From: Paenibacillus sp. sptzw28
GTDB taxonomy: Bacteria > Bacillota > Bacilli > Paenibacillales > Paenibacillaceae
NCBI RefSeq assembly: GCF_019550795.1
Contig: NZ_CP080545.1
Coordinates: 3,444,001 to 3,508,000 of the forward strand
Length of the DNA stretch: 64,000 nucleotides
Direction: 5' to 3'
The notes under the pieces are model-generated. The model was not told the origin of the DNA. It was given only the letters and a program-made list of their open reading frames with translations, and searched no databases. The position numbers were made by a program, and so were the translations under genes. Of the stretch, positions 17,908 to 64,000 are shown one piece after another (positions within the stretch are counted from its first letter, which is position 1; every line of letters begins with the position of its first letter).

Positions 17908-18562
17908 GCAGCACCCTCCCATCCTCCAAACGCACGATCCGGTCCGCGTTCCTCGCCACCTGCTCACTGTGCGTCACCATCACGATTGCAGTTCCTTGAT
18001 TACGCAGCTGATGGAACAAAGCAATAATATGTCGTTCTGTTTCCCCATCGACTTCGCCTGTCGGTTCATCGGCGAGCAATATATCCGGTTCTGCGGATAA
18101 GGCAACGGCCAGTCCAGCCCTAGCCGCCTCTCCGCCTGACAGCTCTGAGGCATAGGCATTCCTGCGCAAGCCTAAACCGACGCGACTTAGAAGTTCACCC
18201 ACCCGCTCTTTATTCCCCTTCCGGGCAAGCTCGATTTGCAGCAGCATGTTCTCCTCCACCGTCAGGTGAGAAAATAAATTGCCGGATTGAAGCATTATGC
18301 CCATATTATTGGCCCGGGCTGCCGAGCGTTCCGTTTCGGGCAGCCGGGTAATGTGCTGCTTCCTTAAGGTCACATGTCCGCCGTCCGGAATATCAAGTCC
18401 TGCGAGAATCGATATAAGCGAGGATTTACCGCTGCCCGAAGGACCCATTACGGCGACCCATTCACCTTGGCCGACTTCGATATTTACTCCCTTAAGAGCA
18501 AGCGTTTCCTCTTCCCCGGCATGGTAAAACCGGTATATTTCTTTCCCCTGCAGCACCGTCAT
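17894..18562 (-). CDS. ABC transporter ATPase (LolD/MacB-type), second copy
   Basis: About 222 residues. Walker A GPSGSGKS, signature ELSGGEAAR, Walker B ILLADEPTG, H-loop VTHSE. ATG 18562 overlaps the lipoprotein stop (ATGA) with GGTGG upstream; an in-frame start at 18601 lies inside the lipoprotein gene and is less likely. Two different ATPases serving one fused permease suggests a heterodimer, one per FtsX half; this is inference. Confidence 0.87.
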   Translation of the reverse strand: MTVLQGKEIYRFYHAGEEETLALKGVNIEVGQGEWVAVMGPSGSGKSSLISILAGLDIPDGGHVTLRKQHITRLPETERSAARANNMGIMLQSGNLFSHLTVEENMLLQIELARKGNKERVGELLSRVGLGLRRNAYASELSGGEAARAGLAVALSAEPDILLADEPTGEVDGETERHIIALFHQLRNQGTAIVMVTHSEQVARNADRIVRLEDGRVLHGTD

Positions 18563-19299: not shown

Positions 19300-19324
19300 T
19301 TCGTTTGTCAGTCCTTTCTGCAGC

Positions 19325-19352
19325 TGAATTATAGTACTGTAATGAATTATAG
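19325..19352. repeat. Direct repeat TGAATTATAG upstream of the lipoprotein operon
   Basis: Two perfect copies of TGAATTATAG (19325-19334 and 19343-19352) separated by 8 bp, 26-53 bp upstream of the lipoprotein start. On the coding strand each copy contains TATAAT, so they may be tandem -10 elements or a binding site for the operon's OmpR-type regulator. Confidence 0.45.
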
Positions 19353-19422
19353 AGAAAGTTTTTAATAACGGATTTAGACGGAAGTGAGAGCAGCATTAGA
19401 ATTAAATGAGAAAACCAAAAAA

Positions 19423-19458
19423 AGAGCCCCTATAACAAGTGATGTTATAAAGGACTCT
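19423..19458. terminator. Bidirectional terminator
   Basis: AGAGCCCCTATAACA / TGTTATAAAGGACTCT imperfect stem, flanked by A7 on the left and ATTTTTT on the right. On the minus strand it ends the BTAD regulator/hybrid kinase transcript, about 90 nt after its stop codon. Confidence 0.75.
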
Positions 19459-19547
19459 AATTTTTTGTTCAGCCTGTAACCGGTCACTAAGAAAAAAGAA
19501 CATCTCCCGCAAATTCTCCAGGCGATGTCCAATAATAAGTGCAATAT

Positions 19548-23600: not shown

Positions 23601-23790
23601 CCGGATAAAACAACCAACCACCGTTTAAAGGTAGTCGTCCCTGCCCATCGATTCGCCAATTCCGAAGATCGATAACACCGTGTTCGGCTGACGGGCCTTC
23701 ATGTTTCATATAGTAAGAATATCCTAAGACAAACAGATATACGCCTAGATTCAGCATGACTACGATCGTAATGATCCTTTTAGGGTTCAT
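20674..23790 (-). CDS. Hybrid sensor kinase: 7TMR-DISM, HisKA/HATPase, receiver, second LytS-type kinase
   Basis: 1,038 residues from ATG 23790 (GAGAGG upstream; the longer start at 23820 is rejected). Order: an N-terminal membrane helix, an extracytoplasmic jelly-roll-like sensor (7TMR-DISMED), seven membrane helices (about 190-400), HisKA (TSHEFRTPLHVMTNIAQ), HATPase (DTGIGIPDG), receiver (VMDLIMPDMTG), then a second kinase module of LytS type (QIKPHFMLNTLNSIASL) with its own HATPase (RDDGAGF). Two catalytic modules around one receiver imply internal phosphorelay. The extracellular fold suggests a carbohydrate ligand. Co-transcribed with the BTAD regulator. Confidence 0.88.
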   Translation of the reverse strand: MNPKRIITIVVMLNLGVYLFVLGYSYYMKHEGPSAEHGVIDLRNWRIDGQGRLPLNGGWLFYPGQLLTSDSDAFDAKAVDINVPGKWSISGTDDSGMGLIGYGTYRLTILLGKKNEAGLMALNFRSVFSSSRVFIDGKLLAGSGIPAADKVGYKPVNSPLNVYFEPVSGTVDLFVQVANFDHLSQGGITTTVTLGPASLMERQRQLSLSLEFGIFLAFIFIGFVYLILAKSGIQRMSGTGYFAWFCLFSAYNTAMMNEKWNYILFPGLPLSWQIKSTIVSTVLSGICMLLFVARRYRSHAIPLMTKLLLVTSATFGLFSIFGDIRHVTFLIPFWTVFIFLLFLYSAFVLCRSAIHGDKNSPFEFAMVFTYISFAFLRKSIVYAKSDLGNVWSVEFLLFIVVLSVMLAQRYVVSYTKNASLSRELGRLFRKREEFLAQTSHEFRTPLHVMTNIAQTLLDNGPQNTDGSQEQLRTLVSVGGQAERLLDDLLDWSKLREGTLDIRLQQVDVRQTVQLSLEMMRYLTSSDHVLLVNKIEPGLTYALADEHRLLQILINLIHNAIKYTSKGRVTVSAEHSGEMLNIKVSDTGIGIPDGKLGAIFEPFERIRPASGSMPGIGLGLAVARRLAELMNGTIEAESRLSEGSTFTVRLPAAGGEEREHRDSREAVMDDALAGGRMTGETETVVAKRGERNAPKRQSGEKYSVLVVDNEPVGLKVMQNMLRAGGIETEAVHSGEEALRMLRCGRSWDLVIMDLIMPDMTGLELCRQIRRKHPLYELPILMITACGRQEDITASFDAGANDFVMKAAGAAELRSRVRTLLEMKRSIANHLRMEAAFLQAQIKPHFMLNTLNSIASLSEEEPQRMRELLVEFGDYLRESFRFTNTEPLVSLERELTLVKAYLEIERIRFSGRLKYSIEADEGLNAMLPPLSIQPFVENAVRHGVLNKRGSGTVDVSVHPEDGRLTVRIRDDGAGFDVSELGKAGAASNRGTSGIGVRNVRKRLGQLFGVDIELQSEMGKGTVVSFKIPLIEVNMRESDAG

Positions 23791-23919
23791 CTGTTTCCCT
23801 CTCAATTTTTCCAGTTTCAACTATTTATTATAAGCGATTATTTGCCGAAATTAAACAGATTTTGTAATATCAACACGAAATACTTCATTTTTAGTAGCAG
23901 ATGGATTTGGTGATCATGC

Positions 23920-23948
23920 AAAAAGGCGCCGGTATAAATACCGGAGCC
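23920..23948 (-). terminator. Terminator of the MFS transporter gene
   Basis: GGCGCCGGTAT / ATACCGGAGCC stem (23925-23948), followed on the minus strand by TTTTT. Confidence 0.8.
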
Positions 23949-24025
23949 TGCTGGCACGGACGATTTTGATTTTTGACTAAATATCACTAACTCCCAATGG
24001 GACTTGCGGCATCCTGTACGAGTCA

Positions 24026-25261
24026 TCAATTAAGGAAATTGGGCCCATGATCCGGTTTTATCATTAACAAGATCAGTATTACCGTTAACGCAGACACTGC
24101 GCTAACCGTATAGAACAATGGACCGATTCCTTTCCCAATCAGCAGTGAAGCCGCAGGCGGACCTACGGCGACGCCCAAAAAGCGCATGCTGCTGTAAAGT
24201 GAGGTAACGGTGCCGCGCTCTTCTTTGGGAATCCCCTCCGTAATCAAAGCATCCATGCAGGGCAGTAATACCCCGATTCCTGCGGCACCTATACCTATTA
24301 ATGAAAGCAGTACGGCCAGACCGCTTGGAGTAAGCATTCCGCACAGGAACAATACAAGTGTCAGCCCAGCCATGCCGGAAACAGACAGCCATTTCATCAG
24401 CACTTTGCGTTCGCCGATGCATTTGCCTGTCAAGTACGAGGCAAGGCAGAGCGCTGAAAGCGGAATGGCCAGCAGCCCTCCCTTTGCCACGCCTTTAAAA
24501 TCATACCTCTGCTCCAATGATTCCGACAAATAAAACAAAATGGCGAATATCGCGAACATACCTGCCCCGCCGGAAATAAAAACTGCCGATAGCCATTTGC
24601 CTTCACGCTTGAGAATGGTTAAGATATTTGCTCGAAATTGCTGGAACGGAACAGGTTTAGGTTGTTTATCATTTTTCTGCCCGCGCTGCTTTGGAATTCG
24701 GATAAAGTACAATATAAGCAGCAACGACATCAAACTGAACACGGGAATCGCATAGAAGGGCATGTCCCAGGCGATTAAGGCGATGAGTGACCCGAGAACA
24801 GGGCTTAACACCTTGCCGAATGTATTTGAGGTCTCGACAAGACCGAGCACTGCGCTCACTTCATCCTCCTCCTTGAACAGGTCTCCGGTCAACGGGAATA
24901 CAATTGGAGCGGCACCTGCCGCCCCCGCACCCTGAAGAAAACGGCCAACCAGCACGAATAGATATGATCCGCTTCCAAGCGAGGAGGCTAGTGCCGAGAC
25001 AAGACCTCCGATTGCTACGAGGATAAGTGCTGGAATGATAACTTTTTTGCGGCCGATTCGATCGGAGAGGTATCCTGCCAGCGGGATGAGGATAATCGCC
25101 ACGACGGAATAGACCGTAATAATCAGGCTCACTTGAAACGAGTTAACTCTTAGCTCCTTGCTGAGCTCGGGTAAAATAGGGATAAGCATGGAATTGCCCA
25201 GCGTCATCATTAATGGAACGGAAGCCAGCGCTGCGATTGATGCACGTTTACGCAAGACCAT
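24026..25261 (-). CDS. MFS transporter, 12-TM drug/siderophore exporter type
   Basis: 411 residues with 12 hydrophobic segments. Motif A DRIGRKK after helix 2 and the helix-5 motif C-like GKVLSPVLG mark the DHA1 antiporter group. It resembles Bacillus exporters such as YmfD, but assignment to a substrate is not possible. Ribosome binding site GGGAGGG. Monocistronic, with a terminator downstream. Confidence 0.85.
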   Translation of the reverse strand: MVLRKRASIAALASVPLMMTLGNSMLIPILPELSKELRVNSFQVSLIITVYSVVAIILIPLAGYLSDRIGRKKVIIPALILVAIGGLVSALASSLGSGSYLFVLVGRFLQGAGAAGAAPIVFPLTGDLFKEEDEVSAVLGLVETSNTFGKVLSPVLGSLIALIAWDMPFYAIPVFSLMSLLLILYFIRIPKQRGQKNDKQPKPVPFQQFRANILTILKREGKWLSAVFISGGAGMFAIFAILFYLSESLEQRYDFKGVAKGGLLAIPLSALCLASYLTGKCIGERKVLMKWLSVSGMAGLTLVLFLCGMLTPSGLAVLLSLIGIGAAGIGVLLPCMDALITEGIPKEERGTVTSLYSSMRFLGVAVGPPAASLLIGKGIGPLFYTVSAVSALTVILILLMIKPDHGPNFLN

Positions 25262-43563: not shown

Positions 43564-44559
43564 TCATGCCGTTTGCTCACCTTCCAACAGGACAATGGAA
43601 CCGGGTGCATAATCGGCCGCCCGGTAAATCATTTCCGACAGCTTGACGACTTTGAGCGCAAACTCACCGGGAACGAGCACCTCGTGCCGTCCGAGAATCG
43701 CATCGATAAAGCTTTTATCCTGATTGGTCGTTTGCTTGGGAAGTACCGGTGTGACAGGTTCTTGACGCAGTCTGCGCAGCGTTATCTGTCCGTTCTCATA
43801 GAAGATTCCGCCGTTCTCGCCGCAGAAAATATAGGTTTCATGCCAGCAAGGAGCGAAGCCGATCAGATTCAAACCGGCGACTGCTCCCTCGGCAAACCGG
43901 ATCGAAGTGAAGGTGTCGATCTCAACGGGTGCTCCGTGCATATGCAGCTGCGGCTTGACCTCAAGCGGGGTAAGGCCCGTCGTCCACAAGAGCACATCGA
44001 TGATATGACTTCCTGAATCCATCAGGAAGCCGCCCCCTGACAATGTCGGGTCCTGCCGCCATGAACCCGGCGTCCCCTGTCTCCACTCTTGATACAAGGA
44101 AGCCGTAATGGAGGTAAGTTGGCCGATTTCTCCTCTGGCAATCACATCCCGGATATATAGAAATTCCGGTTGAAAATGTCGCTGGTACGATACCTGCATG
44201 ACCTTGCCGGCGTTATTCGCAATTTGAATAAGCGCCTCGGCCTCGGCGGAAGAGCAGGTCATCGGTTTTTCGATGAGGACATGAAGCCCTTTGCCCAACA
44301 CATCCACCGCTTGCTGGAAATGCAGGGAATGCGGGGAGCAGATGACTACCGCGTCCAACTCGGACTGATCCAGCATCTCGCTGTAATTCGAGAACGGGAC
44401 TGCATCCCTCAGGCTGAATTTTTCAGCGAACAATTGTCTGTTCTCTTCGCTTGTATCGGCGTATGCTGTAAGGTCCACTTCGGGCAATTCCAGCAGCTGA
44501 CGGGCATGCAGCCGGGCGATGCCTCCTGTACCGACCATTCCGATGCGAATTTTACTCAT
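43564..44559 (-). CDS. Gfo/Idh/MocA-family oxidoreductase
   Basis: 331 residues from ATG 44559 (AGGAGG ten nt upstream; the longer frame is rejected). Rossmann motif GMVGTGGIARLHA binds NAD(P); LHVLIEKPMTCS is the conserved EKP catalytic segment; SGGGFLMDSGSHIIDVLLW carries the His of the active site. It probably oxidises or epimerises a sugar or inositol derivative taken up by the adjacent ABC transporter. It is the last intact gene of that operon. Confidence 0.9.
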   Translation of the reverse strand: MSKIRIGMVGTGGIARLHARQLLELPEVDLTAYADTSEENRQLFAEKFSLRDAVPFSNYSEMLDQSELDAVVICSPHSLHFQQAVDVLGKGLHVLIEKPMTCSSAEAEALIQIANNAGKVMQVSYQRHFQPEFLYIRDVIARGEIGQLTSITASLYQEWRQGTPGSWRQDPTLSGGGFLMDSGSHIIDVLLWTTGLTPLEVKPQLHMHGAPVEIDTFTSIRFAEGAVAGLNLIGFAPCWHETYIFCGENGGIFYENGQITLRRLRQEPVTPVLPKQTTNQDKSFIDAILGRHEVLVPGEFALKVVKLSEMIYRAADYAPGSIVLLEGEQTA

Positions 44560-44576
44560 CAAGCATCCGCCTCCTA

Positions 44577-45413
44577 TTATTTGATTCCGGAGAATGTGAT
44601 TCCCCGTATAAAAGCTTTCTGCACTAAGAAATATATGATAATAATCGGCAGCGTAATCATAACAAGGGTGGCCATCATCATCTGCCACTCTGCTCCATGC
44701 TGGGATTTGAACGCCTGCATGCCGAGCATCAACGTATACTGAGACTCCTCCGACAAATAAATGAGCGGTCCTTGATAGTCCGTCCAGCTGCCCATAAATT
44801 GGAACAACGCTATTGTCAGCAATGCCGGCTTGCATAATGGAAGCATGATCTGCCAATAAATTCTCAGCTCGGCAGCACCGTCGATCCGCGCTGCGTCTTC
44901 AAGCTCCTTCGGCAAGCCCATGAAAAATTGGCGCAGCAGAAAAATAAAGAACGGCGCTCCGAAAAAAGCAGGAAGCCAGAGCGGAATATTCGTGCCGACC
45001 CAGCCGAAATTTTTGAAGGCGATGAAGATGGGAATCATGGTCACTTGGTAGGGCATCATCATAACCATAAGAGTCACCGCGAACAGCGGCTTTGCCCCCT
45101 TCCATGGAACCCTTGCGAGACTGTATGCGACAAGAGGGCAGGAGAACAGTACCCCAAGCGTTGCGAGTCCGGCAATTGCCAGAGTGTTGTAGAGATACAT
45201 AAAGAAAGGAATATAATTGATTGCGTCCGGATAATTGCTCCAATGCATGACGTCCGGTATCCATTTGGGCGGCCATACGAACAACTCATTGTTCGCTTTA
45301 AGCGAAGTGGACAGCATCCATAAGAAAGGAGATAGGAAAAAGGCACCGACGATAATCAGAAAAAAGTGCGCGGACATTTTTTGCATTCTGCCCGCTGATT
45401 GGCTTCCATCCAT
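44577..45413 (-). CDS. Sugar ABC transporter permease (MalG type)
   Basis: 278 residues, six membrane helices, with the EAA loop ELEDAARIDGAAELRIYWQI (from KELEDAARIDGA) that contacts the ATPase. C-terminal VQKAFIRGITFSGIK is typical of MalG-type carbohydrate permeases. No ATPase gene is encoded here, so a shared MsmK-type ATPase is expected. 12 bp after the MalF-type gene. Confidence 0.93.
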   Translation of the reverse strand: MDGSQSAGRMQKMSAHFFLIIVGAFFLSPFLWMLSTSLKANNELFVWPPKWIPDVMHWSNYPDAINYIPFFMYLYNTLAIAGLATLGVLFSCPLVAYSLARVPWKGAKPLFAVTLMVMMMPYQVTMIPIFIAFKNFGWVGTNIPLWLPAFFGAPFFIFLLRQFFMGLPKELEDAARIDGAAELRIYWQIMLPLCKPALLTIALFQFMGSWTDYQGPLIYLSEESQYTLMLGMQAFKSQHGAEWQMMMATLVMITLPIIIIYFLVQKAFIRGITFSGIK

Positions 45414-53934: not shown

Positions 53935-53964
53935 AAAAAAGAGATTAGCGCAGTTGCTAATCTC
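53935..53964 (-). terminator. Terminator of the biosynthetic operon
   Basis: GAGATTAGC / GCTAATCTC perfect stem with a 6-nt loop (53941-53964), then T6 on the minus strand, 43 nt after the last operon gene. Confidence 0.85.
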
Positions 53965-54006
53965 CGGCGGCCACCGATATAATTTGAACCTATTATAGCA
54001 TACAAA

Positions 54007-55167
54007 CTAAATAGTGGTGATGAAGCTGTTCGCGGCAGGCTGCTCCAAAATCTCTTTTACTCGTATGGGCCAATTATTATAATCATTCCCGTAACAGGCG
54101 AGCAAAGCATATACCCAGCGGTCAATTCCGAATGCAATGCAGCCCGAATGCATGGGTTTATAATCGGTGCCAACCACATGAAACGGCCTGCACAATGAAT
54201 CTTCCATATTGTTGAAGGACGCAATGGAAAACGAGCCGCTTGTTGCGCCGGTATTCACGACAAGCTCATATTTCATGTTCCCCATGATCTGAAGCTGTCC
54301 TTTCGCGCTTTCCTCCGAGAAGTAGAACGGATCGCTTGCCGTCTCGATTCTGCCTTTGAGGCCAAGCGATTCGAACAGCATCCAAACCTCTTCCATAAAT
54401 TGTTTACGCTTCGTTTCGATAAACTGAGAATCTCCAAACAGCACGATTTCCCTCATACTGAACTCGTTCAGCCGATGTTTGCCGAGTCTCCACGAAGCTT
54501 CATGACGGAAGCATGTACCACGCGCCGTTAGAACGAGCGGACCGGTTAGACGGCTTTCCGAGAGCTCCGCATAGCAATGAAAGCATACTGCAGGCGATAG
54601 TGCATAAGCGCTTAATCGGGCGGTGCTTTCATAATCCCCCGTTTCCCTGATTTTCTCCAGTGCTTGCAGGGAATGCGGAAATTCGGATACGAAATGAATA
54701 TTCTGGGGAAACGCGGAAATATAACTGCATTTTTGCAGAACGGGGATCGGAATCATAGACGGGTAGCTGCGCAGCTTGGCACTATGGCGAACGGACAATT
54801 CGGCAAGAATGCGATCGATCTGCTGATTCAGCGTAACCGCAAAATCTCTTCTGACAGAGCCGTCGTCAGCGAACAAATCGCTGATTTGTTTCATCTCTCC
54901 GTCGTCTCCGTCACCCGACCCCGATTCGTTATCAATATAGGTTCGGCTGCCGATAATTCGGTTGTTCCGCTCCTTCATGATCAAAGCCTCGATCGTTTTG
55001 TCAATTGTAAAGAGCTTTGCGACGGGGAGCAGCTCCACGACGATTTCTTGCGTCTGCGGATCGAGACGGCATCCGGAAATTCCCTCGATGCTGTAAATCA
55101 ATTTCGACAGCATGGATTGAGCTTGCTTGGTACTCAGAATGCCTTCGGTTGGATACGTTTTTATCAC
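54007..55167 (-). CDS. Class II aaRS-like amino acid:carrier-protein ligase
   Basis: 386 residues. No tRNA anticodon domain. The class II motif 2 is GTCFRHEASWRL followed by HRLNEFSMREIVLFG, closely resembling seryl-tRNA-synthetase-derived amino acid:[carrier protein] ligases. Candidate zinc ligands are Cys147, Glu223 and Cys343 (HSGCIAFGIDRW, motif 3), as in those enzymes, which activate small amino acids (Gly, Ala) and load them on a phosphopantetheine carrier. An acidic insert (SGSGDGDDG) lies near residue 85. GTG start, overlapping the dehydratase stop, with AAAGGAGA upstream. Last gene of the operon. Amino acid specificity unknown. Confidence 0.82.
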   Translation of the reverse strand: MIKTYPTEGILSTKQAQSMLSKLIYSIEGISGCRLDPQTQEIVVELLPVAKLFTIDKTIEALIMKERNNRIIGSRTYIDNESGSGDGDDGEMKQISDLFADDGSVRRDFAVTLNQQIDRILAELSVRHSAKLRSYPSMIPIPVLQKCSYISAFPQNIHFVSEFPHSLQALEKIRETGDYESTARLSAYALSPAVCFHCYAELSESRLTGPLVLTARGTCFRHEASWRLGKHRLNEFSMREIVLFGDSQFIETKRKQFMEEVWMLFESLGLKGRIETASDPFYFSEESAKGQLQIMGNMKYELVVNTGATSGSFSIASFNNMEDSLCRPFHVVGTDYKPMHSGCIAFGIDRWVYALLACYGNDYNNWPIRVKEILEQPAANSFITTI

Positions 55168-56072
55168 AAATAGCTCTCCTTTACCTCCAACAATTTACGA
55201 CCGTGAACATCGCTGCGGAACTTCCTCTCCTTCAGCCAGGAGAGCTCTGTCTGCAGATGAAGATGCGGCTGATCGCCAAACCACTCAATTGCGACGGGAT
55301 GCTGGCATTGATCGCGTTCCAGCTGGCCGATAACCGGCGAATAATCGATTAATCCATCGGAGAGTGCCGTCATTCCCATCCGGCTGCCGGTTGGCGAATA
55401 TACGTTCCCCGGTGCGAAAATGCCAAGCATTTCGCGTCCCGCTATATTTTTCAGATGATAATTTACGGTCCAGGTCTTTAAACCATTGTAGGCTTCAAGC
55501 GGATTGGTGCCGGATTCCCACAAATGCAGAAAATCGAGATTGATCCTCACATGGGCATGTCCCACATCTTTCAGAAGACGTAAAGTAGATTGGAGAGTAT
55601 CTGCGAAAGTGTCCGGATGGGTCTCAATGACGAGGTAAACACCATAATCGAAGGATATTTGCGCAAGCTCCCGGAGCCGACCGACGCAGTGTTCCCAGTC
55701 ACCTGGACTTGCAGAAGCGCTTGGCTTATTCCCTGCGAAAATTCGAATTTTATCGGTACGAAACGAATGGGACAGTGCAATAAGGGACTTCCATTTGCCG
55801 GTAAGCACCTGAGTCGGGCCGTTCCCGCGACTAATGTCAATATAGTCGCTGATCATTGAAATTCGAATGCTTCTGGAATCCATACTATCGAGCAGCCTTG
55901 AGACATCCTGTGAATAACGGCGTATCAAAGCCTTCGCATGCACTCCCCATAATTCGATTCCGGCGAAGCCCCTTTCATCTGCATAGCTGACAAGTTCACT
56001 GAATGAAACCAGCTCATGGCGGAAAGAAATCGAGCATAAATAATAGTTCAAGCTGCACACATCCAATCCCAA
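55164..56072 (-). CDS. AsbF-like 3-dehydroshikimate dehydratase
   Basis: 302 residues, AP-endonuclease-type TIM barrel. It strongly resembles AsbF of petrobactin biosynthesis: YLCSISFRHELVSF near the start, GFAGIELWGVHA, ISMISDYIDIS, then metal-ligand segments VIETHPDTFADTL, INLDFLHLWESG, NYHLKNI and AIEWFGD. AsbF converts 3-dehydroshikimate to 3,4-dihydroxybenzoate. TTG 56072 gives an N-terminus about seven residues longer than AsbF and has no strong ribosome binding site, so the start is uncertain. It lies 27 bp after the second ligase gene. Confidence 0.85.
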   Translation of the reverse strand: MGLDVCSLNYYLCSISFRHELVSFSELVSYADERGFAGIELWGVHAKALIRRYSQDVSRLLDSMDSRSIRISMISDYIDISRGNGPTQVLTGKWKSLIALSHSFRTDKIRIFAGNKPSASASPGDWEHCVGRLRELAQISFDYGVYLVIETHPDTFADTLQSTLRLLKDVGHAHVRINLDFLHLWESGTNPLEAYNGLKTWTVNYHLKNIAGREMLGIFAPGNVYSPTGSRMGMTALSDGLIDYSPVIGQLERDQCQHPVAIEWFGDQPHLHLQTELSWLKERKFRSDVHGRKLLEVKESYL

Positions 56073-56099
56073 TGGTATTAAAGTCTGCGCGGGGATAAA

Positions 56100-57437
56100 T
56101 TATTTTCGCAATTTCTTATACCGTTCGGAGAACAGCTCGCCCTCTTCGATATAGACCTTAACCGGAATTTGAAAATCCTCCAGCCTTCCCCGGCAAAAGT
56201 CCTTAACTCTTGACTTTAATTCCTTTGAATCCATCGGTCTGTTCACATTGACTACGGCAGTTACAATGCTGCCCAGTATAGTATTCGGCTCTCCTTTGAC
56301 CGTCACGTCCCTAAGCTCCGGCATTTGAAGCAGTACTTGTTCGACTTCGACAGGGTACACCTTTCTTCCGCCTACATTAATGATCTCGGATCGCCGGCCG
56401 AATATTCTGATATACTCCCCTTCCTCGCTTACTTGGTCCTCAGTATTGAACCACCCTTCATCATCAAACGGGTTCGGAGCGTTAAGATACCCGAGCATCG
56501 CCGACTTGGAACGGATATGCAGGACTCCGTCGACAACTTTGGTATCCACCCCTTCCCCGCCGATCTTCAGCCAGGGAGAGCCGGGCCCCTTAGACTTCGC
56601 GCGAAGTATGCCAAGCTCGGACAATCCGTATGTTTGTCTCAGCTGGACGTCGGGAAATCGGCTGTGAAGAAGCCGCAGCGTAATATCGGGCATCACTTCG
56701 GTGCCATAGGTTATGATCTTTAGCGACGACATATCGTAGTACTTATAAGCTTCCGTCATCAGCAGCATATTCAGAAAGCTTGGCGAGGCGGGCAGCAGCT
56801 CGACTTGGTGCTTTTCAATTAGAGCGCATATATCCGCAGGCGACCGGTTTGGGGGACAAATAATCGAACCGCCGTTTGAGAGCGTATGGAGCAGGGTATT
56901 AATCCCTCCGATATGGTCGAAAAGAAGGAACGAGAGCGTACGCAAAGTGTCCCTCGGGTATTTATATCTATCGATGAATGGTTCAAAATCATGAAGAATC
57001 GCCTTCGGCGCCCCGGTGGAACCGGACGTGAAGAGGATCATTCCCGCCCGGCCGCTCAGCGTAAAATCCTTCAGCAGTCCCGTCTTCGGAGCTCTGCTGT
57101 TAGTGACGACCTGAGAATTCCGCCCCTCAAAATGTACCGATTTATCGACTTGTGCAATCTCCATCAGACCCTCACGGTTATGACGGACGGCTGCAGACAA
57201 AGGAACAATAACATTATTGTTGGCGATGAACGCCAGTAACGCTCCGCAAACTTCAGGTGAATAATCTCCCTCAAGAAGAATGACTTCTCCGGGCTTTATT
57301 CGCTGATCGCCGATTATACCGGTCCAGCTGCGATAAAATCCCAGCAGGTCTCCATAGCTGACTGAATTGCCGGCGATAACCATAGCTTGGCGGTAAGCAA
57401 ATCCGGACATTTTACCCAAGAGCCAATCAATAACCAC
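56100..57437 (-). CDS. Adenylate-forming ligase, candidate aryl-carrier-protein ligase (AsbC-like)
   Basis: 445 residues of the ANL superfamily. P-loop FTSGSTGAPK (136-145), QTYGLSELG (A5), GWFNTEDQV and IFGRRSEIINVGGRKVYPVE (A7-A8), and a C-terminal Lys in ERYKKLRK (A10). Length is shorter than NRPS A-domains plus carriers and fits stand-alone aryl-activating enzymes such as AsbC. It lies between a carrier gene and the dehydratase gene, so 3,4-dihydroxybenzoate is the likely substrate. GTG start. Confidence 0.85.
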   Translation of the reverse strand: MVIDWLLGKMSGFAYRQAMVIAGNSVSYGDLLGFYRSWTGIIGDQRIKPGEVILLEGDYSPEVCGALLAFIANNNVIVPLSAAVRHNREGLMEIAQVDKSVHFEGRNSQVVTNSRAPKTGLLKDFTLSGRAGMILFTSGSTGAPKAILHDFEPFIDRYKYPRDTLRTLSFLLFDHIGGINTLLHTLSNGGSIICPPNRSPADICALIEKHQVELLPASPSFLNMLLMTEAYKYYDMSSLKIITYGTEVMPDITLRLLHSRFPDVQLRQTYGLSELGILRAKSKGPGSPWLKIGGEGVDTKVVDGVLHIRSKSAMLGYLNAPNPFDDEGWFNTEDQVSEEGEYIRIFGRRSEIINVGGRKVYPVEVEQVLLQMPELRDVTVKGEPNTILGSIVTAVVNVNRPMDSKELKSRVKDFCRGRLEDFQIPVKVYIEEGELFSERYKKLRK

Positions 57438-57469
57438 CTGATCCTCCTCCTCACTATCCGGCAGGCAGA

Positions 57470-57736
57470 CTATAATTTATATGATATAGCCGTTTGTTCC
57501 TGCAGGTATTCTTTAAAAAGCTGATACTTGCTTAAAATCGGAGTATTGATCTCGTGAACATTGATTTGAATATTGAATTCTTCTTCAAGATCGGCGAACA
57601 GATTGACTATAAGAATGGAATCAAGGGCCAAGTCATTGACAAGGTCCGTTTCAGCATCTATTTGGTCTTCCGCCGGTTGTATTCTCGTATTGCGCAGAAT
57701 GATTTCTTTTATCCGTTTATCCATGCTCAGGTCCAT
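57470..57736 (-). CDS. Acyl/aryl carrier protein (third carrier)
   Basis: 88 residues with a phosphopantetheine site at Ser40 in DLALDSILIVNLF and acidic helix 2. ATG 57736 with GGGAGA upstream overlaps the preceding acyltransferase-like gene by 20 bp. Adjacent to the AsbC-like ligase, so likely the aryl carrier (AsbD-like role). A start at Met5 (57724) is possible. Confidence 0.85.
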   Translation of the reverse strand: MDLSMDKRIKEIILRNTRIQPAEDQIDAETDLVNDLALDSILIVNLFADLEEEFNIQINVHEINTPILSKYQLFKEYLQEQTAISYKL

Positions 57737-58790
57737 GGTACTCTCCCTTCCCTGCCGCCAAATGGAGCCATTCGAGAAACTGCAGCTCAGCGTGTTTTAG
57801 CTTCTCGAGCTGTTTGGATATGGCAGGAATAACAATTTGACCGCTCTTATATTTAAGCAGGTGCAAGCTGACGGCGTTCCACATGGCAAGTATGGAATCG
57901 ATCTGACGCTGCCCTTCATGGTACTGTGATTCCTCAAGGGAAGCCGATTCGCGGTAAGCATTCCACACCATGGCCCGGATACGTTTTATCGAGGAAATTG
58001 TCATCGTGTTGCGGCTGACCCAGTCGGCCCTTCGCGGAGGCGCCCACTCCTGAGACTTTACCAGGTCCTCCTCGAAAATTTCCAGCGACCGATAGCCGCC
58101 GTGACGATTGCTGAACCACTCCCGCCAAGCTGACTTTCTCTGCTCCTGGCTTTGATCCGGAACTGACGCTAACGGTTCCGTCTTCGAACCCCCCCGGTTC
58201 TTATAGAAAGACAGATTGCGGTAAGAACAATAAGCCAGGCACGACTCGAGATCGGGCTCCTCGAAGGGGGAGTTTGATTCTTCCAGGATAAAATAGTGCA
58301 GCTCTTGGCGGCCGGCTCTTACCTCACACGCATGCACGATTTCCTTCGGACTTATATTAACGACCGCATCTACCATCGGATCGGTAACAAGATACTCAAG
58401 GTGCTCTTCATTCCACCCATAAATCAATATGGAATGCTGAAAGCCGGAAGATTCCATTCCAAGGTATTCGCGGGGAAAATACCGGAGCTTGGATGCCGCG
58501 CCTAAACATATCGCGCTGCTGCCGTCCTGTACGCAGCGTCTTAGCGATTCCACATCTCCTTTGAAGAACTTGAGCTTGATTCCGTACAGAAACTCGAGAG
58601 GCAACTGCCTGGCATCCTTTCCCGAAAGCAGCGTTTTATATTGATAGCTTAAATTCCAATAATCCAATAATACCCGCCTGTAGTCTTTTCCGTTGATGTT
58701 AAGATAGGTCAGCACGCAGGAAGTGAAGCATTCCATAAATGCCAGGTTGATATTGTGCCCGCTCTTCGTTACCGTTAATTGATGAGTCAT
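57717..58790 (-). CDS. BtrH/AsbE-like acyltransferase, copy 2
   Basis: 357 residues. The N-terminal domain has a papain-like pattern: Cys25 in FTSCVLTYLNING, His in GFQHSILIYGWNEEHLEYLV (as GFQHSILIYGWN) and Asp in LVTDPM. This Cys-His-Asp order is that of BtrH-N-type acyltransferases, which move acyl groups from a carrier protein to an amine (butirosin). The C-terminal 150 residues are helical. ATG with GAGGG upstream. Between the first acyltransferase-like gene and the third carrier. Family assignment is by pattern only. Confidence 0.6.
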   Translation of the reverse strand: MTHQLTVTKSGHNINLAFMECFTSCVLTYLNINGKDYRRVLLDYWNLSYQYKTLLSGKDARQLPLEFLYGIKLKFFKGDVESLRRCVQDGSSAICLGAASKLRYFPREYLGMESSGFQHSILIYGWNEEHLEYLVTDPMVDAVVNISPKEIVHACEVRAGRQELHYFILEESNSPFEEPDLESCLAYCSYRNLSFYKNRGGSKTEPLASVPDQSQEQRKSAWREWFSNRHGGYRSLEIFEEDLVKSQEWAPPRRADWVSRNTMTISSIKRIRAMVWNAYRESASLEESQYHEGQRQIDSILAMWNAVSLHLLKYKSGQIVIPAISKQLEKLKHAELQFLEWLHLAAGKGEYHGPEHG

Positions 58791-58799
58791 TGCCCGCCC

Positions 58800-59846
58800 T
58801 CATTTCATTTCCGCACCCGGAATTGCAGTTAACTTGGCTGCGCGATCTGCTGCAGAAGCTCCCGACTTTTCATAATCCGCTTCATTGTTCCTTGAACCTG
58901 TTTCGCTTCGAGAAAGTCTGCTCTTCCATACAGTGAAAGCCTGGCTCAGCTCCTCTTTCACTGCTCGCTCCAATTTGTGAAGATGGTCCAGCCTTTCTGT
59001 AAATGCTTGCAGATCGACTTTTCTTTGCAAAATCCCATAACGGGCAATTGTCAGCATGAGATTTTCCCATCCCTTTACGAGATCCGATACCGCCGGGTTC
59101 AGTTCCGTACCAATATTGCCTCTACAATACTGAAGGGCGTAATCATAACTGCCGTAACGTTTCGCGATTACGCCTGCATCTTGTATCGAAGCAAACAGCG
59201 TTCTGGGCGCATAACCGCCATTCTTCTCTACGGACTGCCGGACATAGCCTTCGACTTGCACGAGCAATCTGCCGGGAGACGGATTCAGCTCTTTCGCAAA
59301 CAAATGGCTTACCAATTGCTTATCGGCATCCCGGATCGCCCGGATATCCATGACCCGGCCCATTCCGAATTCCATGAAACCGAATGCGCTGTACATATCC
59401 ACGTCAGCTATAGTTTCCTCCCACCCGAAGTAAGGATCTTTAATCAGCCATTCGGTTCCCTGCCTGTTCTTCACAATCAGGAAATGCGGCGAGTGTTTGG
59501 AGCCATATTGATAGGAATATGGAAGAAAAAACAAATCGACCATAATAATAACGGTTTCATATGCTTCTTTGCTCAATATAAGGTCTGTGAATATCGCAAA
59601 GTTCCGGTCTTTAGCGGCATTATAATTAAACCAATTGCTTATCGGGGCTCCATAAAGCAGCGTAAACCGGTTATGCCAATCCTTGGGGTCGGCCACCTCG
59701 TCCGTGTGATAGAAAATGCCTTCATCATTTGATTCAAAATAAGCGTCCCATGCCCCAAGGTAGAGAGGTCTGAAATCAACTTCTTTCTCCTCAAGAATCG
59801 AGGCATAGCAGTCGAGCAAACAGTGGACTTGTCTGGTCTTGTTCAC
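58800..59846 (-). CDS. BtrH/AsbE-like acyltransferase, copy 1
   Basis: 348 residues. N-terminal VHCLLDCYASIL supplies Cys9/Cys13; His in KHSPHFLIVKNRQG and Asp in LIKDPYFGWEE complete a Cys-His-Asp pattern shared with the next gene and with BtrH-type acyltransferases. The C-terminal region is helical with a disordered, charged tail. GTG start overlaps the second carrier stop (GTGA), so stoichiometric translation with that carrier is likely. The two copies have the same layout but differ strongly, suggesting different acyl donors or acceptors. Function is inferred. Confidence 0.6.
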   Translation of the reverse strand: MNKTRQVHCLLDCYASILEEKEVDFRPLYLGAWDAYFESNDEGIFYHTDEVADPKDWHNRFTLLYGAPISNWFNYNAAKDRNFAIFTDLILSKEAYETVIIMVDLFFLPYSYQYGSKHSPHFLIVKNRQGTEWLIKDPYFGWEETIADVDMYSAFGFMEFGMGRVMDIRAIRDADKQLVSHLFAKELNPSPGRLLVQVEGYVRQSVEKNGGYAPRTLFASIQDAGVIAKRYGSYDYALQYCRGNIGTELNPAVSDLVKGWENLMLTIARYGILQRKVDLQAFTERLDHLHKLERAVKEELSQAFTVWKSRLSRSETGSRNNEADYEKSGASAADRAAKLTAIPGAEMK

Positions 59847-60112
59847 GGCTGTACGCCTAATTTTTGTCCAATCTGCCTTGCGATCGCTTTAATGGTGGCG
59901 AAATTCTCGATCAAGAGCTCCTCATCATCAAAAACGACGTCGTACTGCAGCTCGATTTGAACAACCATGTTGATGATTCGTATAGAGTCCATCCCGGCGT
60001 CCTGAATCTGCTCATCGTCTTTGAGCTGCTGCTCGAGAAGCGGGTTTTCGGTTAAGCCGGCAATTGTCCGGCGCAGAAATTCCATTACATCTTCTGTTTT
60101 CGTAACCTGCAT
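59843..60112 (-). CDS. Acyl carrier protein (second carrier)
   Basis: 89 residues with the phosphopantetheine site Ser43 in DAGMDSIRIINMVV. GGGGGA eight nt before ATG. It follows the aminotransferase gene by 14 bp and overlaps the first acyltransferase-like gene by 4 bp. Confidence 0.87.
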   Translation of the reverse strand: MQVTKTEDVMEFLRRTIAGLTENPLLEQQLKDDEQIQDAGMDSIRIINMVVQIELQYDVVFDDEELLIENFATIKAIARQIGQKLGVQP

Positions 60113-60126
60113 GAACCTGATCCCCC

Positions 60127-61254
60127 TTAGACCAACATCTTCTTATTTACATTTAAAAACGACTTGATTTCAGATGCCACCGCCGCCGTTTCTTCTTCAG
60201 AGAGTGCGATGTGCATCGGAAGGGAGAGAATTTCTCCCGCGAATTTCTCACTGTTAGGGAAGGCGCCTTCCGCATAGGCCAGGGACGAATAAGCCGGTGT
60301 AAGATGAATCGGCACAGGGTACTGTACCGCTGTCAAAATTCCCTTCTTTTGAAGATGTTTCTTCAGTTCATCGCGCCTGCCATTGTCAATTCTAATAACA
60401 TACAAATGGTAAACATGACTTGCGTTGCTGTCTTTCGGCAAAATAACGGAATCGGTATCTTGTAAGTACTTGTCATACCACCCGGCGATTTCCCGCCGCC
60501 TTTGCGACCATTCTTCCAGATAACGCAGCTTGATTTGCAGTGCAGCCGCTTGAATCGGGTCCAACCGGCTGTTGAAGCCGGGCATTTCATGCTGATAACG
60601 GGCTTCTCCGCCGTGGTTTCTAAGTTTGCGCAGCTTGGTCAGAATTTCCGGGGAAGACGAAATAATGGCTCCGCCGTCGCCCAGTGCACCCAGATTTTTG
60701 TCCGGGTAAAAGCTGAAGCACCCCATTATGCCCCAGCTCCCCGCCGCTTTGCCGAATAATCTTGCTCCGGCGGCCTGCGCGCAATCTTCAATAACAGCAA
60801 TCCCTTGTGCCTCAGCCCATGGCGCCAATTCACGCAAGTCCGTCATTTGTCCGTAAAGGTGAACGGGAATTATCGCTTTGGTCCGGGATGTCACACATGC
60901 TTTAACTTGTTCGAGGTCAATCAAATAGCTGGAGCGGTCGCAATCGACCAGAACCGGCCTGGCACCGGTATGATTAATGGCATTAACCGTTGCAATAAAA
61001 GTGTTCGAGACGGTAATGACCTCGTCACCCGGTCCGATGCCCAGAGCCTTCAGCGCCAGAAACAACGCATCCGTTCCGCTGCCTACTCCGACCGCGCCCG
61101 CCGACCCGGTATAGGATGCGAATGACGATTCGAAGCCGGAAACCGCGGGCCCTCCAACAAAGACACCGTTTTTGGCGATCTGCTGGACGGATTTCAGCCA
61201 TTCCTCTCGAATGATGTCAAATTCATACTGTGGAGCCGAGAATAAGATTCCCAT
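60127..61254 (-). CDS. DegT/DnrJ/EryC1/StrS-family PLP aminotransferase
   Basis: 375 residues from ATG 61254 (AGGGGA six nt upstream). Signatures: GGPAVSGFESSFASYTG, GSGTDALFLALKALGIGPGD (as GSGTDALFLALKALG), VIEDCAQAAGA, and the PLP Lys in SFYPDKNLGALGDGG. This group transaminates keto-sugar nucleotides (for example dTDP-3-amino-3,6-dideoxyhexose formation) or related cyclic ketones. In this operon it would supply the amine acceptor for carrier-bound acyl groups. A 127-bp gap without visible features separates it from the first carrier gene. Confidence 0.88.
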   Translation of the reverse strand: MGILFSAPQYEFDIIREEWLKSVQQIAKNGVFVGGPAVSGFESSFASYTGSAGAVGVGSGTDALFLALKALGIGPGDEVITVSNTFIATVNAINHTGARPVLVDCDRSSYLIDLEQVKACVTSRTKAIIPVHLYGQMTDLRELAPWAEAQGIAVIEDCAQAAGARLFGKAAGSWGIMGCFSFYPDKNLGALGDGGAIISSSPEILTKLRKLRNHGGEARYQHEMPGFNSRLDPIQAAALQIKLRYLEEWSQRRREIAGWYDKYLQDTDSVILPKDSNASHVYHLYVIRIDNGRRDELKKHLQKKGILTAVQYPVPIHLTPAYSSLAYAEGAFPNSEKFAGEILSLPMHIALSEEETAAVASEIKSFLNVNKKMLV

Positions 61255-61381
61255 CGTTAGTCCCCTTCCCGCAGCGCCGAGGCGCGAATGAGGTCCATAA
61301 TCTTCATTGTGTAACCGCTTCATCCAATGTCACTGCAAGCTCTATTACACCGAAGGAAGCCCCGAAACCGAACCTATGAGG

Positions 61382-61645
61382 TTATACCGCGGTTTTTTGG
61401 AGATTAATGATGAAATCTACGAGTGATCCTACGGTTAGAAATGTATCCGGGTCGATCCCTTCTTCAGGAACATACACCTTAAACGTTTCTTCAATGTAAA
61501 CGGTTAATTGCAGCACCATAATGGAATCGATGTGTAAATCTTCATACAGCCTGTCCGATTCCTCAAGTGGTTCGCGGACCCGCAGCTCCAAATTCTCCAC
61601 CATTAACGTCCTCAGCTCATTCATAATTTCTTGTTTTTGCTCCAT
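61382..61645 (-). CDS. Acyl carrier protein (first carrier)
   Basis: 87 residues, phosphopantetheine site Ser41 in DLHIDSIMVLQL. AGGAGA upstream; starts 3 bp after the first ligase stop, so it is the probable partner of that ligase. Confidence 0.87.
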   Translation of the reverse strand: MEQKQEIMNELRTLMVENLELRVREPLEESDRLYEDLHIDSIMVLQLTVYIEETFKVYVPEEGIDPDTFLTVGSLVDFIINLQKTAV

Positions 61646-61648
61646 CCT

Positions 61649-62902
61649 CTATCTCTCCTGTTCCTGTAGATGTTTTCGGCTTACTTTACCCGAAGACATT
61701 CTTGGAATTGCATCTGCAAACTCGATGATGCTGGGTACTTTATATGCCGGCAGATGCTTGATACACCATGAACGAATATCCTGCTCGCTGACGGAAGAAG
61801 CTGCGACCACTATGGCTCTGACCGCTTCCCCCCATACTTTATGACTGGTTCTCACAACGACCGATTCTCTGATGCCCGGCATACACCCGATTACCGATTC
61901 GACTTCCGACGGTATGACCTTCAAACCGGAGACATTAATAAGATCATCCAGTCTTCCAAGAACATGGATTCGTCCGGTTACGGGGTCCAGATAGCCCAAA
62001 TCCCGGGTTGATACGGCCTTTGAATCCGAGGTAACGATAATTTCCCCCTTACCTTCACCGGCACTGGAATTATCGGGCTGAATGGATACATGAAGATGAT
62101 TCAATGCCATACCTGCGTCCGTCGGTGAGGACGGTCCTTTGCCAACCGATATACATCCCACCTCCGTACAGCCATACTGCTGCCATATCTCAATCAACTG
62201 CATATTCATGCGATCAAGCAGAGCTTGAGTTGGCGGCGACCCCGAAATGACCGCCTTATTCAAATGCAATTTCCCTTTCTCCAGGGAATCCAGCACATTA
62301 AGAATGAAGGGCACCGTGTACACGATATGATGGTTTAAATTCTTTAGCGCTTGCAGGGCGAATCTGGGGTTTTTGTCTTGTATAATTATCGGTTCGGTAC
62401 CCCGCGCGATGCTTGCAAGCACACCCGTAATAAGACCGAACGAATGCGAGACCGGCACAAGAATGACAGGCTTAATTCCTTCTATTGCTTGAAACAGCCG
62501 ATTATAGTTTTCGATTTCCGTCTCGACCAAGGCCCATGCGCGCTCTATCAATGCCGGGTTCCCCGTCGTTCCCGAGCTGTATTGCAGTAATGCAGGTTGA
62601 TAGTGTACGGACGGTATACCTATGCTCAGCACAGTATCCCAGCTGCCGTAAAGCAGGTACGAGCAATCCGCATTACCGGCCATTGCCTTGGCTGACTCAA
62701 GCGGAGTATCGGCGTGCATAAGCAGGACCGAGCCGCCGCGCTGCCTAAGGTACATTACGGCTGCTAATAAGGGGAAGGCGTGTTTAAGGCAAACTGCATA
62801 TCTCTTCCCTTCCGGATTTCGATAGCCGTCGAGCCGCTTCATCTGTTCAAACAAAGCTTGAAGCTGATTTTTGTCGAATATTTGGTCATCGACTGTGAGC
62901 AT
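61649..62902 (-). CDS. Adenylate-forming ligase, first gene of the biosynthetic operon
   Basis: 417 residues, ANL superfamily. P-loop YSSGTTGNPA (108-117), QQYGCTEVG (A5), STRDLGYLD and LGRLDDLINVSGLKVIPSE (A7-A8), and the A10 Lys in MSSGKVSRKHL. The N-terminal subdomain is short (the P-loop is about 30 residues earlier than in the second ligase). It probably activates an acyl or aryl acid and loads the adjacent carrier. AAGAGGTGA precedes the ATG and lies within an inverted-repeat arm shared with the divergent promoter. Confidence 0.83.
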   Translation of the reverse strand: MLTVDDQIFDKNQLQALFEQMKRLDGYRNPEGKRYAVCLKHAFPLLAAVMYLRQRGGSVLLMHADTPLESAKAMAGNADCSYLLYGSWDTVLSIGIPSVHYQPALLQYSSGTTGNPALIERAWALVETEIENYNRLFQAIEGIKPVILVPVSHSFGLITGVLASIARGTEPIIIQDKNPRFALQALKNLNHHIVYTVPFILNVLDSLEKGKLHLNKAVISGSPPTQALLDRMNMQLIEIWQQYGCTEVGCISVGKGPSSPTDAGMALNHLHVSIQPDNSSAGEGKGEIIVTSDSKAVSTRDLGYLDPVTGRIHVLGRLDDLINVSGLKVIPSEVESVIGCMPGIRESVVVRTSHKVWGEAVRAIVVAASSVSEQDIRSWCIKHLPAYKVPSIIEFADAIPRMSSGKVSRKHLQEQER

Positions 62903-62909
62903 TATTCAC

Positions 62910-63041
62910 CTCTTAACAAACGGATTGTATAGTGGTACATTAATGACAAATGCCTTACCATTATTTTACTCAGGCTCCGAAAAGCCGACAATATGCGATT
63001 CTTCAGAACATGGATGATTATTCAGAAGATTTTGTTAAGAG
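62910..63041. repeat. Inverted repeat flanking the divergent promoter region
   Basis: CTCTTAACAAA (62910-62920) and its exact reverse complement TTTGTTAAGAG (63031-63041) lie about 110 bp apart between the biosynthetic operon and the AraC-type regulator gene. Each arm is read as TTTGTTAAGAG in the direction of the gene it precedes. A regulator-binding pair is likely; the left arm also overlaps the ribosome binding site of the first ligase gene. Confidence 0.5.
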
Positions 63042-63071
63042 TAAAAGACTATTAAAATTAGGCGAGGTTAT

Positions 63072-63875
63072 ATGATTCGACAATTTGAAGAAGTACTGCC
63101 GGTTAAGTTTATCGCGCTTGACTCCCGGCAGACGGAGGAATGGGTCAGCCCGTATTTCCAGATTATTTGGTCCGCTGCTTCCGAGCGCGCTCCTAATGAA
63201 AATGATTTCCTATTTGTTCCTCCGAATGTCCCTGTCCGCAGGTTTGTTTATCCTACCCCCTTCAAGTGCATCCAGTTTTTATGCCCTATTCTGGAAACGT
63301 CGAATTCTGTAGCGAGATTTAAAATGCCGGTGGAAATTCCATCCTCCCTGTATGCAAGCAGCAGTTTTACAATGATTTCTGCCGCTGCAGCCGCACCCTC
63401 ATCCGAATACCGGGAGTTCAGGCTTTCTTGCTCCATAACTAGTCTGGTCATCGAAATTATGGAGTATCTGGAAAGACAGCATAAACTGCGGACAGAACCG
63501 ACTAAGAAAAGCAATTCCGACTTTTTCAAAAACGGCAGAGCACTTATTTACTCAACCCGCTATATGAGAAAAAATATGAGCAACCCGCATTTGTCTTTAA
63601 CGGATATAGCAGGCGCCATTGGATACAATTCCAATTATTTCTGCCATGAATTCAGCAAAATATTTACGGTATCTCCCATTCGGTTCTTAAATAACCTCAG
63701 ACTGAATCGCGCGCTGCAGCTTCTGGAACATTCGGAATTGAATGTGAAAACAATCAGTAAATTAGTAGGAGTAACCAGCTCCAGCAGACTGAGCAGCATG
63801 GTAAAGGCCGCCTCAGGTATGACTCCAATCAAGTATAAGCGTTCCAAGCGGACCCAATTTAACCAGGTAAGGTGA
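63072..63875 (+). CDS. AraC-family regulator of the biosynthetic locus
   Basis: 267 residues. N-terminal cupin-like sensing domain (about 1-130, weakly conserved), then the AraC DNA-binding domain: LSLTDIAGAIGYNSNYFCHEF and SRLSSMVKAASGMTPIKYKR (from SSSRLSSMVKAASGMTP). Divergent from the operon and six bp upstream of the glycosyltransferase gene, which it probably co-regulates. GAGG sits four nt before ATG. Confidence 0.82.
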   Translation: MIRQFEEVLPVKFIALDSRQTEEWVSPYFQIIWSAASERAPNENDFLFVPPNVPVRRFVYPTPFKCIQFLCPILETSNSVARFKMPVEIPSSLYASSSFTMISAAAAAPSSEYREFRLSCSITSLVIEIMEYLERQHKLRTEPTKKSNSDFFKNGRALIYSTRYMRKNMSNPHLSLTDIAGAIGYNSNYFCHEFSKIFTVSPIRFLNNLRLNRALQLLEHSELNVKTISKLVGVTSSSRLSSMVKAASGMTPIKYKRSKRTQFNQVR

Positions 63876-63881
63876 ACAGTC

Positions 63882-64000
63882 ATGTCCAACGTGTTATTTA
63901 TAAACGGGCCGGCCAGCGGCCACGTGTACCCGACCCTGGGATTAGTAGAAGAACTAATAGCCATGGGCGAGAAAGTGTTTTACGTATCAAGCGAAGAGTT
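63882..64000 (+). CDS. Glycosyltransferase, MGT/GT-B type (partial, runs off window)
   Basis: The first 39 codons are visible. MSNVLFINGPASGHVYPTLG matches the N-terminal Rossmann strand and acceptor-binding loop of macrolide/UDP-glycosyltransferases (GT1, YjiC/OleD-like). AAGGTGA six nt upstream of ATG. It starts six bp after the regulator gene, so it is probably a tailoring enzyme of the cluster. Sugar donor unknown. Confidence 0.7.
   Translation, partial: MSNVLFINGPASGHVYPTLGLVEELIAMGEKVFYVSSEE

Follow-up and report, generated by a model that had tools for sequence, protein, structure and literature searches.

What does an operon make when it carries the catechol genes of petrobactin biosynthesis with no siderophore synthetase beside them? 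The question is raised by ten minus-strand genes of Paenibacillus sp. sptzw28, at positions 54007-62902 of a 64,000-nucleotide stretch of its single-contig, 6.10-Mb genome (NZ_CP080545.1, genome positions 3,444,001-3,508,000; hereafter, the window). We hold it somewhat more probable than an even chance that the operon encodes not a petrobactin pathway but a thiotemplated assembly line, in which amide bonds would link 3,4-dihydroxybenzoate, an amino acid, and one further carrier-borne acid to an amino sugar. All ten frames are open, the intergenic gaps range from −20 to +58 bases, and the gene order from 62902 to 54007 is as follows:

61649-62902, minus strand: AMP1, AsbC-like adenosine monophosphate (AMP)-forming ligase (PF00501/PF13193)
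61382-61645, minus strand: ACP1, AsbD-like aryl carrier protein (PRK07639; attachment Ser at DSI)
60127-61323, minus strand: DegT, DegT/DnrJ/EryC1/StrS aminotransferase, predicted to act on a ketosugar (PF01041)
59843-60112, minus strand: ACP2, carrier, predicted partner of the seryl-tRNA synthetase (SerRS)-like ligase and DUF6005 (PF00550)
58800-59846, minus strand: DUF6005 (AsbE family), papain-like, predicted carrier-dependent amide synthase
57717-58790, minus strand: BtrHL, papain-like, predicted carrier-dependent amide synthase (fold and triad; no family match)
57470-57736, minus strand: ACP3, third carrier (PF00550, E 1.9e-9)
56100-57437, minus strand: AMP2, second AMP-forming ligase, predicted loader of ACP3 (PF00501, E 1.4e-27)
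55164-56072, minus strand: AsbF homologue, predicted 3-dehydroshikimate dehydratase yielding 3,4-dihydroxybenzoate (PDB 3dx5, E 8.1e-72)
54007-55167, minus strand: aaRSL, SerRS-like amino acid:carrier ligase (PDB 3mey, E 5.8e-27)

The sequence of the 55164-56072 gene assigns it firmly to AsbF. Besides its match to AsbF itself (3dx5), it matches AP_endonuc_2 (E 1.9e-26), and residues E150, D180, H206, K208, and E263, which align with E142, D172, H198, K200, and E253 of 3dx5, are unchanged in 11/11 aligned sequences. Residues of this set bind metal in AsbF. AMP1 is 41% identical to asbC of an asbABCDEF-type locus (L130) and scores 446.9 bits with NCBIfam PRK08308, under the cut-off of 513; it has no PDB sequence match at E 1e-25. 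ACP1 is 50% identical to asbD of the same locus, and its nearest family is still PRK07639 (AsbD), even if its 92.3 bits fall under the equivalog cut-off of 100. AMP1 is thus predicted, by homology, to load 3,4-dihydroxybenzoate onto ACP1. The PF00501 matches of the two ligases have E-values of 1.4e-19 and 1.4e-27, and the PF00550 matches of the three carriers 7e-7, 2.9e-8, and 1.9e-9, each carrier displaying a DS attachment-site motif. With ten genes in place and significant family matches (a structural one for BtrHL), the gene set listed in the initial annotation, three carriers, two ligases, an aminoacyl-tRNA synthetase-like enzyme, an AsbF-like enzyme, and a DegT protein, was borne out.

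The amino acid branch is headed by aaRSL, which matches tRNA-synt_2b (E 4e-8) and 3mey, an amino acid:carrier ligase, supporting a firm assignment by sequence as a SerRS-like amino acid:carrier ligase. As in ligases of the Bll0957 type, the class II core and the zinc ligands are kept: C195, E240, and C343 are unchanged in 9/9 aligned sequences, and in the 3mey alignment, with a 20-residue tag assumed, they face the Bll0957 zinc ligands C131, E176, and C279. However, ahead of the core that the two have in common, aaRSL is ~60 residues longer than PRK07080; it does not reach the cut-off of that equivalog (140.4 bits vs. 357), and, unlike those ligases, shares an operon with AsbF.

Surveys for aaRSL at E ≤1e-20 found it in 50/394 genomes of the family and 13/398 of the class; an initial scan of genome contigs for relatives had given 9 loci. 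Among the 58 family-survey rows, 40 stretches were fetched, covering 41 rows, one row was the window, and 16 weaker rows stayed outside; from the class survey, 5/9 genomes outside the family were read. Together with L013, L014, and L016, the fetched stretches make up 48 aaRSL loci, the other named loci duplicating fetched genomes. An ACP2-type carrier lies no more than two genes from aaRSL in 22 of the 48, and in L077 an ACP1-type carrier does too. Two other families of the class (L113 and L114, ~4-18.3 kb) show what may be another uncharacterized aaRSL pathway, with a carrier, a luciferase-like monooxygenase, an aldehyde dehydrogenase, a thiamine pyrophosphate enzyme, a weak BtrH_N protein, and an AMP ligase (families scanned in L113). 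In L115 (9992-18097), a single gene separates an aaRSL homologue (32%) from a protein of 1,899 aa that matches AMP ligases repeatedly and may be a nonribosomal peptide synthetase (NRPS).

How would carrier-bound acids be joined? The operon encodes two candidates. DUF6005 matches its Pfam family strongly (E 3.7e-51; 174.6 bits, cut-off 25), is 25% identical to the AsbE homologue of L130, and has no meaningful PDB sequence match; in PMC11317620, DUF6005 serves as the asbE model. For BtrHL, neither Pfam nor NCBIfam gives a match at E 0.001. The predicted models of both proteins nevertheless display a two-domain fold, papain plus helical, resembling CtaG and CcbD. In BtrHL, C21, H119, and D137 are unchanged in 25/25 sequences. 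In DUF6005, C9, C13, H118, H121, and D137 are unchanged in 14/14, and in a wider set (n=17) they are kept in 16 (the miss being a gap), 16, 15, 17, and 17, respectively. We infer from the models that the DUF6005 triad is C9/H121/D137: C9 is preferred over C13 because the structural alignment, at its beginning, pairs it with CtaG C11, while H121 and D137 were taken because their spacing equals that of H128-D144 given in CtaG entries. Both proteins are therefore predicted, on modeled folds, to be carrier-dependent amide synthases of the CtaG/CcbD type, and the earlier proposal of two Cys-His-Asp acyltransferase candidates gains folds and conserved triads. A further papain-type member is possibly represented by two cluster-edge proteins sharing the start motif PYNDIWLDC, at L061:378-1472 (minus strand, 364 aa) and L137:16185-17237 (minus strand, 350 aa).

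The AsbC-AsbD-DUF6005 core was found in at least 12 of the 48 aaRSL loci, most of which were read as 20-kb stretches: L013, L014, L061, L062, L063, L064, L065, L066, L068, L069, L071, and L075. The presence of aaRSL in these twelve follows from their selection and is not an independent finding. A thirteenth relative, L131, was found via AsbD in a genome with no aaRSL match. Among these 13 Paenibacillaceae clusters, AsbC, AsbD, and DUF6005 are present in 13/13, AsbF in 11, DegT in 12, and a Gfo/Idh/MocA oxidoreductase in 12, which are exactly the DegT-bearing clusters. An MsbA-like ATP-binding cassette (ABC) exporter occurs in 11/13. A gene for ~600 aa in the relatives, which by length could have been a synthetase of NRPS-independent siderophore (NIS) type, turned out to be this exporter. 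A GT1 or GT4 glycosyltransferase lies in or beside 13/13 (just outside the first stretch in L013 and L014), and the GT1 gene flanking our operon accordingly belongs to the set. Carriers of L065 (48% to ACP2) and L061 (63% to ACP3), missed by the open reading frame (ORF) filter, were read from the frames.

Other components vary. In six clusters (L062, L063, L064, L066, L071, and L131), two other ligases replace AMP2. L075 has an extra chorismate-using synthase, and L068, without AsbF, encodes at ~8.5-12 kb and 16.5-18.2 kb a 4-hydroxyphenylpyruvate dioxygenase-like protein, a class IV aminotransferase, a carbamoyltransferase, and two flavin adenine dinucleotide-oxidase pieces. The L131/L137 sister cluster combines AsbC/D/E/F homologues with an ATP-grasp protein and a pyridoxal phosphate-dependent decarboxylase, and shows no aaRSL, DegT, or Gfo in the 37 kb read. 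By gene content, the relatives exchange aromatic source, loader, and acceptor genes as cassettes.

Gene neighborhoods also bear on which parts work together. DUF6005 (its first copy) directly follows ACP2 in 13/14 clusters including the window, the exception being L069, and the order BtrHL-ACP3-AMP2 is kept in 6/6 AMP2-bearing clusters, window counted. These arrangements, with the ACP2-type carrier close to aaRSL in 22/48 loci, suggest two working groups: one of aaRSL, ACP2, and DUF6005, the other of AMP2, ACP3, and BtrHL. The nearest PDB entries to AMP2 are FadD13 and 4-chlorobenzoate ligase. For the acceptor, DegT matches PF01041 (E 1.6e-115), has many sugar aminotransferases among its PDB matches, and keeps K209 in 13/13 sequences. 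In known pathways, oxidoreductase/aminotransferase pairs of the Gfo-DegT kind oxidize and aminate sugars. DegT is accordingly predicted to make an aminosugar, because of its PDB relatives and its pairing with Gfo in related clusters. The last component lies beyond the operon:

63882-64000, plus strand: GT1 macrolide-family glycosyltransferase, first 119 bases (TIGR01426)

Reading the sequence to the right of position 64000, as the initial annotation had advised, completed this gene, which ends 1,075 bases past the window (L003:1076) and encodes 397 aa. Scored on the part at L003:3-1076, it passes TIGR01426 (276.7 bits vs. cut-off 260), and GT1 also lies beside the operon in L013, L014, L061, and L065.

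From these features, we infer the following substrates, step order, product, and role. AsbF, judging from homology and conserved residues, would convert 3-dehydroshikimate into 3,4-dihydroxybenzoate, which AMP1 would put on ACP1, like the AsbC and AsbD homologues they are. In parallel, aaRSL would activate an amino acid, probably a small one, and charge ACP2, and AMP2 would charge ACP3 with a third acid. DUF6005, via a Cys acyl-enzyme, would then take the aryl group off ACP1 and attach it to the aminoacyl-ACP2 amine, the kind of step that CtaG is proposed to perform in closthioamide. BtrHL would transfer a carrier-bound acyl group to the amine placed on a ketosugar by DegT, as CcbD does in celesticetin. 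Finally, GT1 may glycosylate the product, as tailoring or self-protection.

Could the operon instead serve a petrobactin-like siderophore, supplying 3,4-dihydroxybenzoyl-ACP1 from which DUF6005 would acylate either a polyamine or citrate units made by distant NIS synthetases? Catechols bind iron, homologues of AsbC, AsbD, AsbF, and the AsbE family are all in the operon, and a genome-wide search did find three NIS synthetases at 3,572-3,579 kb, ~65 kb from it. The initial annotation's statement that NIS and NRPS functions are absent therefore holds for the operon and its vicinity, where no AsbA/AsbB-type synthetase was found, but as regards NIS it does not extend to the genome. As for NRPS, two weak PF00668 condensation-domain matches (20.4 and 20.2 of 30.6 bits) were obtained in the whole genome, both under the cut-off and neither in the window. 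Adjacent asbA/asbB or an NRPS, named earlier as what would overturn the pathway, did not turn up alongside in these genome-wide searches. The NIS genes sit within L009 (3,566,000-3,585,999) together with decarboxylase, aldolase, and OCD-family genes, a staphyloferrin-B-like set, and two of the three proteins score best with the SbnF and SbnC models, both under cut-off. This 20-kb stretch has 9 Fur-box matches against 0.7 expected, three of them perfect. As a user of the operon's products, this cluster was rejected, since it has its own Fur boxes and its own precursor genes.

The operon promoter region itself has no Fur box. At ≤3 mismatches, the window has 5 matches against 3.7 expected, the nearest at 44636, ~18 kb to the left, and the nearest to the right is ~17 kb off (L003). 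Besides L009, the asbABCDEF-type loci L130 and L132, with two NIS genes each, served as positive controls: L132 has a perfect Fur box before asbA, where L130 has two overlapping boxes of 3 mismatches each. Neither of these two loci gave a match to DegT, a third carrier, or a SerRS-like gene. NIS genes were seen in 0/13 relatives, within the stretches read. Iron regulation of the operon is not supported by these sequences, the absence of a box being no proof on its own, and a petrobactin-like role appears quite improbable.

Several observations nonetheless weigh against the proposed assembly line. In 26/48 aaRSL loci, no carrier was detected within two genes of aaRSL; at other sites, the ORF filter overlooked at least two carriers. 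The L082 stretch, which has three NIS genes and no AsbC/AsbD, contains an aaRSL homologue (36%). L068 and L069 lack AsbF, and elsewhere in their genomes there is just one 28% partial match. Finally, a Fur scan of the 13 cluster stretches and upstream stretches L101-L107, L133, and L134 turned up two boxes at ≤2 mismatches: a perfect one in L103, ~6 kb from its cluster, and one in L068 with 2 mismatches.

Is the operon complete? It has neither the Gfo/Idh/MocA oxidoreductase nor the ABC exporter of its sister clusters. Relocation of either gene elsewhere in the genome was rejected, the best matches being only 36% and 28%, and so was a degraded remnant inside the operon, where the junctions, at 58 and 9 bases, are too short to hold one. 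The genome's best match to the absent oxidoreductase (36% over part of its length) is a Gfo/Idh/MocA gene in the window, at 43564-44856, which is not an orthologue. In the DegT tree, which is only moderately resolved (the aaRSL tree being poorly resolved), the window groups with L013, L014, L061, and L065 (support 87/93, not strong). Because these four all carry both genes, it is simpler to suppose that the window's line lost them, the operon appearing as a compact, reduced variant. The ketosugar maker and the exporter would then have to be supplied by other genes of the genome. That the operon is a decaying remnant of a fuller cluster, making no mature product, would suit the absence of Gfo, present in 12/12 DegT-bearing relatives, and of the exporter, present in 11/13, with no close copy of either elsewhere in the genome. 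We nevertheless think this unlikely: the ten frames are open, the catalytic residues intact, and the junctions at the absent genes tight, as in a working operon.

The glycosyltransferases and exporters raise another possibility, in which aryl or aminoacyl groups are placed on a sugar that is then polymerized or anchored as cell-surface or exopolysaccharide decoration. Glycosyltransferases accompany 13/13 relatives and MsbA-like exporters 11/13, and surface decoration was predicted for other SerRS-like systems in PMC2922099. However, the window GT1 is a macrolide-type, small-molecule enzyme, the exporter is absent from the operon, and the scanned cluster genes, many flanking ORFs being unscanned, include none named as a flippase, a polymerase, or an anchoring gene. 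Surface decoration therefore has, in our judgment, a low probability. The same source predicts that SerRS-like ligases attach an amino acid to a sugar amine, which fits the aminosugar acceptor of the proposed assembly line.

That assembly line has its closest parallels in two known systems. The closthioamide (cta) pathway of Ruminiclostridium cellulolyticum is NRPS-independent and thiotemplated, with an aromatic acid and an amino acid on separate free carriers that CtaG is proposed to join (PMC6772006). The operon likewise has predicted aryl and amino acid carriers, and both its papain-type proteins have a predicted CtaG fold. In contrast, its ten genes include neither an ATP-grasp amino acid loader nor an AANH thioamide synthetase, the rest of the genome not having been searched for these, and it has instead a SerRS-like loader, AsbF, DegT, and a glycosyltransferase. 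In lincosamide biosynthesis (CcbD/LmbD with the carrier CcbZ/LmbN), CcbD, whose fold the operon proteins are predicted to share, joins an amino acid to an aminosugar. Here, however, the triad is Cys-His-Asp and not Cys-His-Glu, BtrHL is 13% identical, and there are no lincosamine or alkylproline genes among the ten. A modular amide pathway leading from 3,4-dihydroxybenzoate and an amino acid to an aminosugar-like acceptor had been foreseen in the initial annotation, and is supported by Gfo in 12/12 DegT clusters and by the CtaG/CcbD folds; that account was incomplete in leaving these two parallels unnamed and in not recognizing the operon as a reduced member.

The likeness to petrobactin asbABCDEF lies in the AsbC, AsbD, AsbE-family, and AsbF homologues (41, 50, 25, and 41% identical to L130). 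The operon has no AsbA/AsbB NIS synthetases and no Fur box, and it adds two carriers, two ligases, DegT, BtrHL, and GT1. The butirosin pathway is not known to include AsbF. Its papain-like enzyme BtrH acylates an aminoglycoside with a chain delivered by a carrier (PMC10318531). The operon proteins share, by prediction, the papain-like fold and carrier-dependent acyl transfer, but have no BtrH_N match in Pfam.

Taken as a whole, the predicted chemistry of the operon is known carrier-based amide formation, and the combination of genes is new. In the open-access literature, most subscription papers being outside reach, we found no described cluster of such gene make-up, in agreement with the initial annotation. 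It is conceivable, though we put it at slightly under an even chance, that these Paenibacillaceae clusters make an undescribed natural-product family, aryl-aminoacyl aminosugars built on a free-part line like those of lincosamides and closthioamide. The petrobactin catechol module would have been freed from siderophore making, and cassettes exchanged for the loader (SerRS-like or ATP-grasp), the aromatic source (AsbF or alternatives), and the acceptor (aminosugar or decarboxylated amine); GT1 may provide self-protection, pointing to an antibiotic. If true, the clusters would open an unexplored natural-product group.

Several implications follow. The petrobactin catechol module occurs in operons without NIS synthetases. 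SerRS-like amino acid:carrier ligases, which are biochemically known, with no settled pathway in the parts of the literature accessible to us, gain a biosynthetic context and a likely acceptor, and their role is testable. Because neither an NRPS condensation domain nor an NIS synthetase marks the set, detection rules keyed to these signatures would probably overlook such clusters. The 13 sister clusters, with their exchanged parts, offer a natural series for testing which carriers and acceptors are used by amide synthases of the CtaG/CcbD type.

Two features flank the operon:

63072-63875, plus strand: AraC-family regulator, divergent from the operon (PF12833)
53940-53965, minus strand: terminator-like stem-loop with a 10-pair stem and a T tail, just past the last gene

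The regulator holds the same position in the relative L061, where it is 45% identical. For the stem-loop, the scan overall gave 10 such sites against 10.5 in shuffled sequence, i.e., no enrichment. Farther away, at 12364-25261, the window contains a signaling and export block with histidine kinases, response regulators (one with BTAD), an FtsX/MacB-type permease, an ABC ATPase, and a major facilitator superfamily transporter.

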